This document shows positions 32,627-38,992 of a stretch of DNA of 64,000 nucleotides, one piece after another. The position numbers and the translations under genes are program-made. The stretch spans positions 1 through 64,000 of the forward strand of contig JACPPF010000118.1 in the NCBI GenBank assembly GCA_016191165.1, in the 5' to 3' direction. Positions within the stretch are counted from its first letter, which is position 1, and each line of letters opens with the position of its first letter. The notes below the pieces were generated by a model. That model ran no database searches. It was not told where the DNA came from and saw only the letters and a list, made by a program, of their open reading frames with translations. This DNA comes from Planctomycetota bacterium. Its GTDB lineage: Bacteria; Planctomycetota; Planctomycetia; Gemmatales; Gemmataceae.

Positions 32627-33838
32627 TTATGACGCCGGATTGGTGACGCGCCCGGCGAACAGGATCGAACCCGAGCGGTGATCGCGAATGAGGAAGAAGA
32701 ACGGCCGATCGGCATGAAACGTCGCTGTTTGGGGACGCCCCAGGAGGTTGAAGACAATCCCGGTGGCCGCCACGGCCTCTGTGCCGTTCTCGTTGACCTC
32801 GACGAACGCCTTATGAAGGGCGGCCGAAATAAACAGATTCTGGTTTGAAGCCATCCCGCTGAAGTTGGCTTTTCTCGGGGCGAACGCGTCGCTCATGCCC
32901 ATTTGCTTGAGCGCCTTGTCGAGTTGGAACTCGTCAGTGACTTTGAATCTCGGGATCTTCAAATCGACCTCAAAATCGTCCAGTTTTTTCAGCCACGCCG
33001 CCAGGTTTTGCGCGCTCAGTTGCCCCTCCAGGTCCGCCAGGCCATCCGCTTTCTTGGGTAGCAAGATAAACATCGATTGTTGAAAGCCCTCATAGGGAAT
33101 TTGCACCATCGAGAATGAATCGAAGGACGCCAGCCTTGTAAGGTGTTTGCTGTGCATCATCGGGGTTTGGATGATCTTGCCACGGGCCAGCTTGAATGGC
33201 CCGGCCTTGGTGTTTCCGGCGTTGAACGGCGCCAGCCAGGCAGCTTTGAAGTAGATGGCGTTGGTCAACACCAGGCGGGTCTGGACCGAAACGGCCCCGC
33301 CCGGGAGGAGCTTCTTGATCTTGTTCTTGGTTTGCTTCTCGACCCATTTGTTGATGGTCTGGCGGGCGTTTTCGGTTCCTTTGACGAAATCGACTTCCTC
33401 GAGGCCCGCCTTGTAATGGTCTTGCCCGATCTTGAGAAAGCCCGGCAGGAAGCCGTGGTCCTTCTGACCCCACAACCGATTGGCGATGGCAAGCTGGAAG
33501 GGCCGTTTCTTGCCGTCGTCGGCAAAGTGCCGCACCAGCTTGCCGAACGCAGAATGAAGCTGTTCGGCGCCGAGGTTGAAACGCAACGTGGTTTTCATCT
33601 GCTCGGCGGTGTTGCCTTTGGCGCCGGCGTAACACATGCTGAAGGCGTTGGAGATCGAATAGGGCGAGAAAAATAGATTCCCCTCTCTGGCAGCGAGGCG
33701 CTGGTAAAGCGCCAGGCCAAAGTCGGTGTTGCCGTCGACGAGGGTCTTGACATCGGGGTCGATTTTCTGGGCCCGCGCAGGGGCGCAACTGGCCACCGCG
33801 ACGACGAGGACCGACAGCAAGGCGATGGTGTTGCGCAT
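32627..33838 (-). CDS. secreted serpin (2 of 3), predicted P1 Leu
   Basis: A 403-aa serpin paralog with a signal peptide (LSVLVVAVASCAPARA-QK) and the full fold: LFFSPYSISNAFSMCYAGAKG, TRLVLTNAIYFKAAW and HADRPFFFLIRDHRSGSILFAGRV. The hinge reads GTEAVAATG. The predicted scissile bond is Leu-Gly, so chymotrypsin-, subtilisin- or elastase-like targets fit better than trypsin. AAGGAG precedes the start. It lies 60 bp before the first serpin and 41 bp after the third on the same strand, consistent with an operon. Confidence 0.93.
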   Translation of the reverse strand: MRNTIALLSVLVVAVASCAPARAQKIDPDVKTLVDGNTDFGLALYQRLAAREGNLFFSPYSISNAFSMCYAGAKGNTAEQMKTTLRFNLGAEQLHSAFGKLVRHFADDGKKRPFQLAIANRLWGQKDHGFLPGFLKIGQDHYKAGLEEVDFVKGTENARQTINKWVEKQTKNKIKKLLPGGAVSVQTRLVLTNAIYFKAAWLAPFNAGNTKAGPFKLARGKIIQTPMMHSKHLTRLASFDSFSMVQIPYEGFQQSMFILLPKKADGLADLEGQLSAQNLAAWLKKLDDFEVDLKIPRFKVTDEFQLDKALKQMGMSDAFAPRKANFSGMASNQNLFISAALHKAFVEVNENGTEAVAATGIVFNLLGRPQTATFHADRPFFFLIRDHRSGSILFAGRVTNPAS

Positions 33839-33879: not shown

Positions 33880-35106
33880 CTACGAGCCCGGGTTGACAAC
33901 ACGGCCACTGAAGAGGATGGTGCCCGTGCGTTGATCGCGAATCAGGAACAGGAACGGATGATCCACGTGAAACGTCGCCGGCGGCGGCTGTCTTGGCCTG
34001 GACTTGAATTTCGTGACAACCACCGCGGTCGCGGCTGCCGCCTCCGTGGACTTCTCGTCGACTCCGATGAACGCCTTGTGAACGACATTGGAGATATACA
34101 GGTTGCCGTCCTTGCCACTCGCCATACCCTTGAAGTTGGCGTTGACTCGATCGAACGCATCCCTCATGCCCATCTCTTTTAATTGGGCGTTAAGCTGGAA
34201 TTCCGTGGTCAGCGTGAACTTCGGCAACTTCAGATCGACGCTATGAATGGCGAGAGCCGTTGTCCAATTCTGCAAGGCGGCGGGCGCGAGTTTCTTTTCG
34301 ACCTCGGCCAGGCCATCCTTTTTCTTTGGGAGGATCACGAGCATCGACGCCTCGTGCCTCTCATACGGCATTTCCAGGATCGAAAAATCCCCGAGGTCGG
34401 CAAAAGAGAGTTTCGGGCGGGAACGCATCATGGGCGGCTCGATCTTTTTGCCGTCGAGCAGGAAGAAGGGCTCGGGCCTGGTCAGTTTGGCGTTGAAAGG
34501 AATGTGCCAGGCTGCCTTGAAGTAAATGGCGTTGGTCAGGACGAGACGCGTATCCGTGTTGATCGCACCCCTCTTGAGGAGGTCTTTGATTTTTTCCTTG
34601 GTTTGTTTCTCGACCCAGGAGTTGATCCGCCCACGGACAACCTCGTTGGCACGGATGAAATCGACTTCCTCCAGTCCCGCGCGATAACGGTCGTTGCCGG
34701 TCTTGAGGAACTCGGGATAGAACCCGTAGTTTTTTTGCCCCCACAAGCGATTGGCGATGGTGAGCTGAAATGGCCTGGGCTTGCCGTTGCCATCCAGCTG
34801 GGCGATCAGTTTGCTGAAGACTGGGTGAAGCCGATCATCGCCCAGATTGAATCGCAAGGTCGTTTTCATCTCCTCGGCCGTGCGGTTTTTGGCGCCGGCG
34901 TAGGTCATGGCGAGTGCATTGGAGATGCTATACGGCGAGAAAAAAACATTGCCGCCGTCGGCCGCCAGACGCTTATGGAGTGTCAAGGCGAAATCGGTGT
35001 TGCCTTGGACCAGGCTTTCGATTTCGGGGTCGAGTTTCTGGGCATGCGCCAGCGGCACGGCAGTCCAGGCCGCAAGCAACAGGAGAGTGAAAATGGCAGC
35101 ACGCAT
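33880..35106 (-). CDS. secreted serpin (3 of 3), longer divergent reactive loop
   Basis: A 408-aa serpin paralog, first in the transcribed order. It has a signal peptide (ends LAHA-QK) and the core motifs VFFSPYSISNALAMTYAGAKN, TRLVLTNAIYFKAAW and HVDHPFLFLIRDQRTGTILF. The hinge has Ser for the usual Gly (STEAAAATA). The loop is four residues longer than in the other two and is Lys/Arg/Pro-rich (TKFKSRPRQPPP), so P1 could be Phe or a nearby Lys. Inhibition remains likely because the small-residue hinge is kept. Confidence 0.92.
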   Translation of the reverse strand: MRAAIFTLLLLAAWTAVPLAHAQKLDPEIESLVQGNTDFALTLHKRLAADGGNVFFSPYSISNALAMTYAGAKNRTAEEMKTTLRFNLGDDRLHPVFSKLIAQLDGNGKPRPFQLTIANRLWGQKNYGFYPEFLKTGNDRYRAGLEEVDFIRANEVVRGRINSWVEKQTKEKIKDLLKRGAINTDTRLVLTNAIYFKAAWHIPFNAKLTRPEPFFLLDGKKIEPPMMRSRPKLSFADLGDFSILEMPYERHEASMLVILPKKKDGLAEVEKKLAPAALQNWTTALAIHSVDLKLPKFTLTTEFQLNAQLKEMGMRDAFDRVNANFKGMASGKDGNLYISNVVHKAFIGVDEKSTEAAAATAVVVTKFKSRPRQPPPATFHVDHPFLFLIRDQRTGTILFSGRVVNPGS

Positions 35107-35135: not shown

Positions 35136-38100
35136 TCAGGGGCCCACACTAAAGACGCGGTTGATACGACTTTGGTTTCCCTGGCGATCCCTCACCGTTA
35201 CGATTAGCCGGCCGCGTTGCAGCCTGGCCAGCGGTTCTGCCAACGGCAGCTCCCAGACGCCCTGCGATTTCACGCGGAATTTGGACGCCAGGTTGGTGCC
35301 TGCGGGAACGCCGGCCAGCGTGAAATCGGCGGTGACCTCGAACGACTTCAGATCGAGACCGCTGTAAGTGTCGTGCATGCCGATCAGGATGCGGGTAACC
35401 TTCTCGTTTTTCCCAGGCTCGGGATACGTCAGCGTCAAGGTTGGCCGTTGATCGTCGCCGTGCCAGCCGAAGCCCGCGGGTGAGCGTAGCGAACCTGCGG
35501 GATCCAGATCAATGGGACAACCCAGGTCGATCCAGCGGATGATCGTGCGGCGATCCTCTTCCGAAAGCGCCTTGACCTTGCCCGCCTTGACCGCGGCCGG
35601 CGGCGGCATGATGCTGCCTTCGTAGTCGATGTCCACCACGTTGTCGCGAATCCAGTAACGCAGCTTTTGTTCGTCGTCGTAGTTGACCCCCTTGATCCGT
35701 TTGCCGCCCTGATGCAGGGACTTCGGGTCGTTGCGAATCGCCAGGCTCGGGAAGTCGTCATTCGATCGGCTGTCCATGCGCTTGCCAAACAGCTTCCACA
35801 CCAGCAGGCTGCGCCGTGACTGGAAGCGCACGACATATCGGCTCACCGAATCGGGCGGCCAACCCACCTCGCGCGGCTTGTAACGCTCGCCGCCGACGGC
35901 CAGCCGAAAATACGTCATCGGCACGCGCACGTCCGGCCCGGCGTCGTGCCCGAAGGCGGGGAGCGTCTTCTTCATGTCGTCGTCATCGAGGACGAGGCCA
36001 CCAGCGGGCTTGCGTCCGCCGTTCGCCGTGTGACAGGCGACGCAGCTCCGCTCGAAAATCGGGCGGATGTCGCGGAAGTACTCGACGTTGAGCAAGGCCC
36101 CCCTCACCCCCAACCCCTTTCCCGCAAGGGGCGAGGGGCGCAAGTAGCGCAGGCCCGTCTCGTTTTTCACGTCCCACTGGCGTTTCGATTGATCGTTCGC
36201 CCTGGTGGTGATGAGCGGGGTATGCGTCGTAAGATCGAAAATCTTGTAGTCCTTGCGGGCGGCCATCGTTTTCTCGAACGGCGTTGGCTGTTGCGAATGA
36301 GCATGGCAGCCGCCGCAGTCGTTGCGAATTTCGCCCGGGCGAAGTTGATGCCAGGTCTGGGCGAAATTGAGGACCATGCCGTGCTTGTCGATGGTCTGGA
36401 AGGTGAACGACTGGTTCGCGGGAATCTTCGCCAGGAAGCTGGTGTCGGGATTGCCGTCGGGGTCGAGGGGTTGGGTTATGCCCACCCCCCGCTCACGCGG
36501 AAGGCTCGCATTGAAATGGCGCACGGGAATTTCGCCGAGGATGCGCAGGCGTTCCATGGCGTGGTTGCCGTAGAGGGGAGCGCCGCCGTTGCCCTTGATG
36601 TCGGTGCGCGGTTCCTGGGCGACGATGCGAATGGCGTGGATGTCGCTGTTGTCATAGATTCCGGCGTCGGCGCCCTGCATCGACCAGTTCATGCGCATGC
36701 GTTTGGGATCGCGTGGCACCGCCGTCACGCTGCCCTTGGGAACATAGCCCTCGGGCGCACTTTCGCGTTTGTACATGCTGGACGTGCCGACCAGGCCATA
36801 GGGCGTGCCTTCGGGCAGGTGCGGCGAGCGCTTGCCGTCATTCTTGTGCACGAGAGTTTTCGGTTCGTCGATGCCATAGATGCGCTTGTAGGGCACGAGC
36901 GGCCGAGGCCATTGCTCGTTGTACTTTGGATCGTTCTTGATGAGGAGCATCTGGCCGGGTTCGTCGATGGGCTGCCCGTTTTTGATGAGATAGATGCCGG
37001 CGTCGATGAACGGGTAGTAGTTGTACTGGTGATTGGCCGGCCCGGGGGTCCAGACGGTGAGCAGGTGATTATCTGGAGCGCCGCAGGGATGCGTGACCTT
37101 GCCTAGCGCGTGGGGATAACTCTTGCCGCCGTGCTGTTTGGATTTGACCTGCTCACCTGGGGTCGACGAGGGGGCGGGGCCGTCCTCGCCGTAGGCGAAC
37201 TTCGTCAGCACCTGGATGCCGGTCGGCGTGAAAGGCATCTGGAAGGTGTGCCCGCCGTAGCGTTGTCCCTTGTTGCGCGGGTCGCGCAAATCGCCTGGCC
37301 CGAATGCGGGAACGCCAACCGGCGGTCGCAGAGGCAGCTTGAGGAAGGTGCCGAACCCGCTGTTGTTGAGGTTGTAATATTGCTCGACGACGATGCTTTT
37401 ATCAGAAAGCTGCGACTGGAAGTGAAACGCCGGCGGCGCTCCGCCGGTCCAGTACGCGCTCACCACCGGCTCCCAGTTCGTGCCATCGGGATGAATGCTC
37501 CAGATGCCCCACAGGATGCTGTTGTGCGTGCCGTGCGATTCGAGCGTCGAATAGCAAATGCGGCCATCGGTCAGGATCACCGGGTGCAAGGCACACGCGA
37601 TATTAAGGTAGCCAATTTGGTCCACATTTCTCTCCCTCTCCCCTGGTGGGAGAGGGTTGGGGTGAGGGGGATCGTCCATCACGAAAAGTTGCAGCGTGAT
37701 GCGAGGATAGCCGCGCGGCGGGGCGTAGGCGTTGCGGTTCGACGTGAACACGACCTTGCCGCCCGGAGCGGGACAAGGGCCGAGATTGAAGACGCCGTAG
37801 CGCAGCGACGTCTTGCCCTTCTCCGGCGTGCGAAAGTCCTTCGACCACGGCGCGGCCCCGAGGTTCGGCGTGAAGGTTTGATCCGTGAGACGAACGGTCT
37901 TTTTCGATTGCACGTGGACCTTGTAAATGTCCGAACCGGAGTGCTTGGCGTCGATGAACTTGGCATAGTAGACCCATTTGGCGTCGAAGGAGACGTAAGG
38001 GTCCATGACGCTGCCGTCCTTGCCGCTGACGAGAAGCTCCTCGCTGCCATCGGGGTGTAGGAGCAGCAGGTCGGCGCCAGGCTCCATGCGCGTGGGGTCG

Positions 38101-38309
38101 GAGAACTCGGCCCACTTGGTGCGTTTCACATCACCGTGGCGCGGCGTCCGCACGTAGACGATATCGTAATCGTATTTGACGGTCTTGTCGGTCGAAACGT
38201 GCGGCGGGTTGACGTTGAGCTTTTTCGGCGGCGCCTTCTTGTTTTGTCCCAATGCGGGGGAGAACGCGGCAAATAGGAATAGAAACGCAAAGATAAGCTG
38301 ACGTTGCAT
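35136..38309 (-). CDS. large secreted PD40/cytochrome-like protein, HzsA-related
   Basis: A 1057-aa protein with a signal peptide (LIFAFLFLFAAFSPALG). The N-terminal part has TolB/PD40-like propeller motifs (ADLLLLHPDGSEELLVSG, GGKVVFTSNRNAY). The family assignment, as seen in many planctomycetes, is hydrazine synthase alpha-subunit related. Two CxxCH heme-binding motifs are visible, CGGCH at 665-669 and CVACH at 756-760, so c-type heme is plausible. Three palindromic elements are translated in frame (peptides PHPNPLPPGERE, SPLAGKGLGVRGAL and AGSLRSPAG). True hydrazine synthesis is not implied. The selenoprotein candidate lies 70 bp upstream on the same strand. Confidence 0.85.
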   Translation of the reverse strand: MQRQLIFAFLFLFAAFSPALGQNKKAPPKKLNVNPPHVSTDKTVKYDYDIVYVRTPRHGDVKRTKWAEFSDPTRMEPGADLLLLHPDGSEELLVSGKDGSVMDPYVSFDAKWVYYAKFIDAKHSGSDIYKVHVQSKKTVRLTDQTFTPNLGAAPWSKDFRTPEKGKTSLRYGVFNLGPCPAPGGKVVFTSNRNAYAPPRGYPRITLQLFVMDDPPHPNPLPPGERERNVDQIGYLNIACALHPVILTDGRICYSTLESHGTHNSILWGIWSIHPDGTNWEPVVSAYWTGGAPPAFHFQSQLSDKSIVVEQYYNLNNSGFGTFLKLPLRPPVGVPAFGPGDLRDPRNKGQRYGGHTFQMPFTPTGIQVLTKFAYGEDGPAPSSTPGEQVKSKQHGGKSYPHALGKVTHPCGAPDNHLLTVWTPGPANHQYNYYPFIDAGIYLIKNGQPIDEPGQMLLIKNDPKYNEQWPRPLVPYKRIYGIDEPKTLVHKNDGKRSPHLPEGTPYGLVGTSSMYKRESAPEGYVPKGSVTAVPRDPKRMRMNWSMQGADAGIYDNSDIHAIRIVAQEPRTDIKGNGGAPLYGNHAMERLRILGEIPVRHFNASLPRERGVGITQPLDPDGNPDTSFLAKIPANQSFTFQTIDKHGMVLNFAQTWHQLRPGEIRNDCGGCHAHSQQPTPFEKTMAARKDYKIFDLTTHTPLITTRANDQSKRQWDVKNETGLRYLRPSPLAGKGLGVRGALLNVEYFRDIRPIFERSCVACHTANGGRKPAGGLVLDDDDMKKTLPAFGHDAGPDVRVPMTYFRLAVGGERYKPREVGWPPDSVSRYVVRFQSRRSLLVWKLFGKRMDSRSNDDFPSLAIRNDPKSLHQGGKRIKGVNYDDEQKLRYWIRDNVVDIDYEGSIMPPPAAVKAGKVKALSEEDRRTIIRWIDLGCPIDLDPAGSLRSPAGFGWHGDDQRPTLTLTYPEPGKNEKVTRILIGMHDTYSGLDLKSFEVTADFTLAGVPAGTNLASKFRVKSQGVWELPLAEPLARLQRGRLIVTVRDRQGNQSRINRVFSVGP
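35473..35501. repeat. in-frame palindrome of the gagcgcagcga family inside the HzsA-related gene
   Basis: The sequence cccgcgggtgagcgtagcga with cctgcggg closing the palindrome lies within the coding region and is translated as part of PAGSLRSPAG. It matches the intergenic family found at gene ends elsewhere in the window. Confidence 0.7.
36096..36141. repeat. in-frame ccctcaccccc-type element inside the HzsA-related gene
   Basis: It contains ccctcacccccaacccctt and tcccgcaaggggcgagggg, and encodes SPLAGKGLGVRGAL in frame on the minus strand. It lies between the two CxxCH motifs. Confidence 0.8.
37630..37672. repeat. in-frame ctctcccctggtgggagag element inside the HzsA-related gene
   Basis: A palindrome (arms ctctccc / gggagag) with the ggttggggtgaggggg tail. 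It is translated as PHPNPLPPGERE between propeller-like strands (LQLFVMDD before, YLNIACALHP after). Confidence 0.8.
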
Positions 38310-38379: not shown

Positions 38380-38733
38380 TCAAGGCGCGATCGACTTCAC
38401 GGTCATCTCGGGAAAGCTCTTTTTCTTCAACGCGGCACGGATCGCGTCCTCGTTCCACGATTCTTTGCCCTTGATCTTGAAGCGAACGTCTTGCGTGTCG
38501 ATATCGGTCTTGATGCTGCCATGCTCTACCCACGGTAGAGTCGCGAGTGCGCTGCGCACCCGCGCCGGTCAGCCGACGCGTCAGGTCATGCCGGGCACGT
38601 TGACCACGACATCGGTCGTGTACTCCGATTTGGCCGACGGCTGATCACCCGACGGCGCCGGGCCTTTGCTGCATCCCGTGTGCAACAGGCTCAGCGAAAT
38701 TGCCAGCAGGACTGAGGGGAACAAGATTCGCAT
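38380..38733 (-). CDS. candidate selenoprotein: HMA-like lipoprotein with two in-frame TGA codons
   Basis: A 117-codon frame from the ATG at 38733 (AAGGAG 5 nt upstream) to a TGA stop at 38382-38380, open except for TGA at codons 51 (38583-38581) and 55 (38571-38569). It starts with a lipoprotein signal (MRILFPSVLLAISL, lipobox HTGC, Cys21). Residues 40-117 form a heavy-metal-associated beta-alpha-beta-beta-alpha-beta pattern: VVVNVPGMT, U51, RVG, U55, PARVRSALATLPWVEHG. Both TGAs sit exactly where metal-binding Cys occurs in GMxC...C HMA domains. A hairpin (38542-38564) follows. Decoded as selenocysteine, the protein would bind or reduce soft metals at the membrane. The alternative is a pseudogene, but no other lesion is seen. 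Confidence 0.75.
38542..38564 (-). promoter_or_regulatory. SECIS-like hairpin after the in-frame TGAs
   Basis: In mRNA sense, 9-bp arms CGCGGGUGC (38564-38556) and GCACUCGCG (38550-38542), including one G-U pair, close a 5-nt loop GCAGC. The loop begins 14 nt after the second UGA and 26 nt after the first, within the spacing known for bacterial SECIS elements, and has a G at its first position. The complementary strand has an A-C mismatch, so the fold is better in the mRNA. Confidence 0.5.
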
Positions 38734-38768
38734 GAAAGCTCCTTGGCTATGAGCGCCCAAAACAATGA

Positions 38769-38821
38769 AAGTAGGTCAGGCTTTCCAGCCTGACCGTCAG
38801 GCTGGAAAGCCTGACCTACTT
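38769..38821. repeat. perfect 25-bp inverted repeat
   Basis: Arms 38769-38793 (aagtaggtcaggctttccag...) and 38797-38821 are exact complements with a 3-nt loop. The site is upstream of the selenoprotein candidate and downstream of the cupin gene, and could be the cupin terminator. The gtaggtcaggctttccagcc unit looks like a mobile palindromic repeat. Confidence 0.85.
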
Positions 38822-38992
38822 CATTTCTTTAGACCCTCTAAACGTATTCTTACACGTACCACGGGACATTCTATTGGAAAACGCCCTTGCTATCCGTGTT
38901 TGGGTTGGTACGGCAACGAGTTGGTGTGGAAGGTTTGAGGCGGAGTGTCAGCAACGCGCAGGGCTGCACGCCTTGAAGGGAAATGAGCGCGG

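Follow-up and report, generated by a model that had tools for sequence, protein, structure and literature searches.

Reading frame and predicted protein

The window (the whole stretch of 64,000 nucleotides that was analysed) contains a minus-strand frame with two internal TGA codons at the places where a heavy-metal-associated (HMA) domain would carry its metal-binding cysteines. This raises the question whether the frame is a decayed gene, a gene in which TGA is read as some other amino acid, or the gene of a selenoprotein with two selenocysteine (Sec) residues in one metal site. By nearly all sequence tests it is a real selenoprotein gene, and a double-Sec HMA protein is very probably its product. 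The following features were assigned.

38380 to 38733, minus strand: gene of the predicted double-Sec HMA protein, 117 aa, probable lipoprotein (ATG at 38733-38731, stop codon TGA at 38382-38380)
38739 to 38744, minus strand: Shine-Dalgarno sequence AAGGAG, 5 nt ahead of the ATG
38671 to 38733, minus strand: putative signal peptide with lipobox-like LHTGC (Cys21), read from the frame; standard lipoboxes in relatives
38581 to 38583, minus strand: UGA1, predicted Sec51, first HMA metal-ligand position; Cys or TGA at this site in homologues
38569 to 38571, minus strand: UGA2, predicted Sec55, second HMA metal-ligand position; Cys or TGA at this site in homologues
38413 to 38607, minus strand: HMA domain, residues 43-107, from Pfam (U read as C) and the predicted beta-alpha-beta-beta-alpha-beta fold

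As claimed in the sequence-only reading, the frame from 38733 to 38380 comprises 117 codons ahead of its stop and is open except for TGA at codons 51 and 55; the Shine-Dalgarno sequence is likewise intact. The terminator is a TGA with TAA immediately behind it. The possibility of a third, C-terminal Sec at this TGA was rejected because all relatives lack a C-terminal U, and the terminal TGA was therefore taken as an ordinary stop. The claimed lipoprotein signal held in part. The N-terminus (MRILFPSVLLAISLSLLHTGC) is signal-peptide-like, but the lipobox LHTGC is slightly atypical, with H at -3 compared to the standard [LVI][ASTVI][GAS]C. Standard lipoboxes (LAGC, LGAC, ISGC and the like) were found in most relatives; one relative (L026/L117) is without the lipobox Cys.

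HMA domain and fold

The window protein was matched by the Pfam HMA model (PF00403) at 30.1 bits with U read as C (gathering cut-off 24.8), and this match disappeared with X at the two TGA sites. The same model matched all 23 aligned relatives. Structure prediction with AlphaFold2, with 22 relatives included, gave a beta-alpha-beta-beta-alpha-beta arrangement, i.e., a ferredoxin-like HMA fold, with a pLDDT above 90 in the domain. The closest solved structure to this model is periplasmic MerP (1osd, TMt 0.85). The HMA fold proposed from the letters was thus recovered both by the Pfam match and by the model. Compared to GMxCxxC, the ligand loop of the window protein, GMT-U-RVG-U, would carry Sec at the ligand sites and has a spacing that is longer by one residue. 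UxxU and CxxC spacings were found within the same family as the UxxxU of the window.

Family members in the order

A protein search over the order gave matches in 50 of 102 genomes, and 58 family members were tabulated with TGA read as U. The motifs at the ligand positions were UxxxU (13), UxxU (10), UxxC (21), UxxxC (7), CxxxC (4) and CxxC (3). Residues at both positions are exclusively U or C, which agrees with the earlier placement of the TGA codons on metal-binding Cys positions, and the sites that carry Cys or TGA in homologues are precisely those of codons 51 and 55. The mixed U/C forms (n = 28) and the Cys-only forms (n = 7) align with the UGA forms at the ligand sites. Judged from these counts, the double TGA pattern is far beyond chance, because TGA occupies the first ligand position in 51 of the 58 homologues and all other residues at both sites are Cys. 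The same TGA codons occur in independent genomes; a sequencing error is excluded.

A domain tree was calculated without the motif columns; it has many weak forks and contains at least three state changes at position 1 and at least 11 at position 2. The ratio dN/dS was 0.04-0.15 in six of seven close pairs (73-97% identical) and 0.32 in the seventh. Within the clade of the window protein itself, values of 0.31-1.05 were obtained from more distant pairs and are noisy; dS is probably lowered there by the hairpins described below. Purifying selection in the close pairs and the frequency of TGA at the first ligand site are in line with the earlier statement that decay is improbable.

TGA-bearing matches were found beyond the order as well by a phylum-wide search. 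A scan of genome contigs with the Cys-read window protein gave no match, probably because the patterns contained Cys for TGA and were otherwise specific to the window sequence.

Selenocysteine machinery

The genome of the window (7.2 Mb, 95% complete) was searched for selA, selB, the tRNA-Sec gene and selD. The first three are present above their cut-offs. The tRNA-Sec gene scored 73 bits (gathering cut-off 47) and was assigned the anticodon UCA by ARAGORN. SelA (491 aa) matched TIGR00474 with 560 bits, and SelB (667 aa) reached 361.6 bits, its cut-off being 242.25. No selD gene was found in the assembly, which is 95% complete and in which the best matches are ThiL/HypE-like as judged from frames and neighbours, though SelD is present above cut-off in all six congeners. 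An assembly gap is the likely cause, since 88 of the 102 genomes of the order also have SelD; SelA was found in 92 of the 102. With this machinery, the ligand-site pattern and the hairpins at hand, we infer Sec incorporation at both UGA codons.

Many SelD genes of the order have one in-frame TGA, which would make SelD itself a selenoprotein there; others have no such TGA and belong to frames of roughly 740-790 residues, which are probably fusions. A long integrase-like frame (L001, G000 contig C125, 2-1330, minus strand) directly adjoins the tRNA-Sec gene, which suggests integration of an element beside this gene.

RNA hairpins behind the UGA codons

Two candidate bacterial SECIS elements (bSECIS) follow the UGA codons in tandem, both inside the coding sequence.

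38544 to 38562, minus strand: HP1 (CGGGUGCGCAGCGCACUCG), candidate bSECIS for UGA1; loop about 25 nt past UGA1
38524 to 38540, minus strand: HP2 (CUCUACC-GUG-GGUAGAG), candidate second bSECIS; GUG loop 35 nt past UGA2

In the window, HP1 is composed of CGGGUGCG-CAG-CGCACUCG. Published rules for bSECIS elements ask for a 3-9 nt loop that has G within its first two positions, a 4-16 bp stem and a distance of 16-37 nt from the UGA (PMC13188914). According to these rules, HP1 suits UGA1 and HP2 suits UGA2. The distance between the HP2 loop and UGA2 is 35 nt in both the UxxxU and the UxxU class.

HP2 is near-invariant in sequence, and its GUG loop is nearly invariant. Among the genes found by homology, i.e., leaving out loci found via the HP2 pattern, HP2 with at least six of seven pairs was present in 23 of 23 double-Sec, 7 of 7 UxxxC, 7 of 19 UxxC and 2 of 7 Cys-only genes; about half of the members with a single Sec retain it. 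The peptide LPW is encoded by most Cys-only genes as well, though only two of the seven have HP2. Synonymous recoding, in which the peptide was fixed and codons were redrawn by usage, reduced the HP2 pairs of double-Sec genes from about 6.8 to about 4.4 of 7. In the long frames of the family loci, CUA accounts for only 4.6% of the codons for Leu and GUA for 10% of those for Val, yet both are common at HP2.

Compensatory changes were found in both stems. For the two stems of the xxx class, 22 cells were changed on both sides (shuffled mean 7.0), a value reached in none of 500 shuffles, and slid-stem controls gave 2-9 such cells. Covariation in the xx class was weaker: cells paired and the covariation score were above the shuffles, and for changes on both sides the slid versions equalled the true stems. 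A comparison of Sec at the second position with HP2 over independent tree pairs yielded too few informative pairs. A search against Rfam gave no meaningful match for this region, only chance miRNA-like matches to an inverted repeat upstream of the gene.

A scan of 84,980 species was performed with DNA alone, using HP2 with a TGA 37-40 nt ahead as the pattern and leaving the protein out. It returned 30 places, 26 of which are a TGA at the ligand site of the HMA family; the other four are chance-like. The named true matches belong to planctomycetes (Gemmataceae, Gemmata, Fimbriiglobus and other Planctomycetota MAGs). As an independent recovery, it is the strongest single evidence that RNA and protein belong together.

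Paralogue and gene neighbours

A second family member with the motif GMT-U-ADG-C-APRAQKAL was found on another contig (C23) of the same genome. It is flanked by genes for an AcrB-type RND pump (ACR_tran, 1543 aa), a CusB/HlyD protein with the heavy-metal-binding HMBD motif and an OEP outer-membrane efflux protein, which is the setting of a CusABC-type metal-efflux cluster. Three relatives of the paralogue type (L049, L051 and L052) adjoin the same CusB-like gene.

For the window copy, no conserved metal-operon neighbour and no adjoining mer genes were found. Its neighbours are a cupin on one side and an HZS_alpha-domain protein on the other. The latter is encoded downstream at 35136-38309 (minus strand); its 1057 aa include the middle domain of hydrazine synthase alpha (PF18582) and CxxCH motifs that are cytochrome-c-like. 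An HZS_alpha-domain protein is likewise located downstream of the orthologue in genome G064 (L085).

Proposed mechanism

The gene product would be an exported, probably lipid-anchored HMA protein in which both ligand Cys residues of GMTCxxxC are replaced by Sec, giving GMT-U-RVG-U. SelB with Sec-tRNA(Sec) is predicted to decode both UGA codons, aided by the hairpins just downstream. HP1 would serve UGA1, and HP2 would most likely serve UGA2; this second assignment is held with about even confidence, because HP2 is often kept by single-Sec members. A more specific reading has, in our judgement, equal chances of being right or wrong: in Planctomycetota, two in-frame SECIS hairpins in tandem, one per UGA and with HP2 as a dedicated second SECIS, would act as a relay that places Sec at two codons spaced by four (by three in the UxxU form) and so creates a diselenol metal site in an envelope metallochaperone.

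In the cell envelope, where the protein is presumably located, the Sec pair would be a diselenol when reduced and a diselenide when oxidised. MerP and CopZ bind and transfer metal via Cys pairs. Most likely, the Sec pair would take up a soft metal ion, presumably Cu+, Ag+ or Hg2+, and hand it on; this pair is plausibly a tighter metal binder than a Cys pair and could act in transfer or sequestration in the envelope. Taken on its own, the metal-trafficking role is considered probable from the predicted protein, because of the fold, the motif and the efflux-linked paralogue.

Alternative explanations

Under the standard code the frame contains two in-frame stops, as would a pseudogene with two chance TGA codons. 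Decay of this kind was refuted by recurrence in independent genomes and has almost no probability: the TGA is found at the same ligand site in most homologues of the order, close pairs are under purifying selection, conserved hairpins lie behind the UGA codons, and the frame has an intact Shine-Dalgarno sequence and no further stop. The openness of the selenoprotein frame at TGA would also be obtained if UGA were read as Trp or another residue, through a genome-wide code change or near-cognate readthrough. TGA is, however, the commonest stop among the long frames of the window (12 of 19), and a genome-wide reassignment was rejected for this reason. Homologues with Cys, and never Trp, at both sites, the presence of tRNA-Sec, SelA and SelB, and hairpins resembling bacterial SECIS behind the UGA also argue against reading as another residue, which is considered highly improbable.

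If the protein is a selenoprotein, HP1 alone might serve both UGA codons, and HP2 might be a general enhancer or pausing element instead of a second SECIS. A clade of 13 UxxC genes with HP1 and without HP2 is consistent with this, as are several UxxxC and UxxC genes that retain HP2 with a single UGA. On the other side, the loop of HP1 lies just 13 nt past UGA2, under the published 16-37 nt (PMC13188914), whereas HP2 obeys the bSECIS rules with its GUG loop at a constant distance from UGA2 in both spacing classes, and none of the double-Sec genes found by homology lacks it. Decoding by HP1 alone is considered less likely than not. The Sec pair might also serve redox or selenium chemistry in a real selenoprotein, e.g., as a diselenide oxidoreductase or in the handling of peroxide or selenite. 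Most known selenoproteins are thought to have redox functions (PMC9312934), UxxC is a redox-like motif, and the window copy lies outside a metal operon, next to the HZS_alpha/cytochrome-c-like gene that is also found at the G064 locus. Fold and motif are nevertheless of the metallochaperone type, and paralogues are located in RND metal-efflux clusters; a redox role is considered unlikely.

Comparison with known systems

Sec-containing MerP-like and UxxU HMA proteins are already known as predictions. A MerP selenoprotein was predicted in GOS ocean metagenomes (2 sequences; PMC2398784), and NF041115 is listed as a 'putative mercuric reductase' with UxxU and 2 Sec (PMC13188914). The NF041115 UxxU metal-binding (seleno)protein shares with the window protein the HMA-like domain and two Sec at metal-ligand positions. 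It differs in its UxxU motif, where the window protein has UxxxU, an export signal and two tandem hairpins (the hairpins were compared on the window side alone). The NF041115 model matched 22 of 23 family members weakly, and the window protein reached 21.9 bits (cut-off 95). MerP (TIGR02052; PDB 1osd and 1afi) shares the small exported HMA domain and is the closest solved fold. The window protein reached 22.9 bits with TIGR02052 (cut-off 92.55), lacks adjoining mer genes and has CxxxC/UxxxU spacing where MerP has CxxC. Assignment to either MerP or NF041115 was rejected, both cut-offs being missed by far.

The MerT/CopZ fusion-like heavy metal transport selenoprotein NF045683 shares the occurrence of Sec in a metal-transport HMA setting. 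It was matched at E <=0.01 by 11 of 23 members, the window protein not being among them, and differs from the window protein, which has an N-terminal signal only, as a family named for a MerT/CopZ fusion-like transport protein. With bacterial SECIS elements such as that of E. coli fdhF, the hairpins share the position within the coding sequence past the UGA, a small loop, a G near the loop start and the distance of 16-37 nt (PMC13188914). The window differs from such systems in having two tandem hairpins, two UGA codons four codons apart and a near-invariant HP2.

The main text of one report describes planctomycete selenoproteins from algal isolates and notes sel genes in Gemmata obscuriglobus (PMC4807772); no mention of HMA proteins was found in that main text. 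In the selenoprotein literature examined, no description of a UxxxU HMA family or of tandem hairpins was found, and an earlier description by Haft is possible.

Forms with one or two Sec recur across the order, among Gemmataceae and their relatives, and elsewhere in planctomycetes; dozens of other planctomycetes share the arrangement with two conserved hairpins. Ordinary gene callers would miss or shorten these genes. Most U/C combinations at the two ligand sites of a single small fold occur in this family, and the tree contains both gains and losses; the family is therefore a natural system in which to test why a metal site has Sec in place of Cys. With two UGA codons four codons apart and a candidate hairpin for each, the decoding of successive UGA codons by the bacterial ribosome is directly testable.

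Further features of the window

Two serpin-like proteins, read from the frames, are encoded side by side at 32627-33838 and 33880-35106 (minus strand). Just upstream of the selenoprotein gene, a near-perfect inverted repeat, AGTAGGTCAGGCTTTCCAGCCTGAC-GGT-CAGGCTGGAAAGCCTGACCTACT, is located at 38766-38828. It is the sole such pair in the window and could be a REP/MITE-like element or the terminator of the upstream gene.
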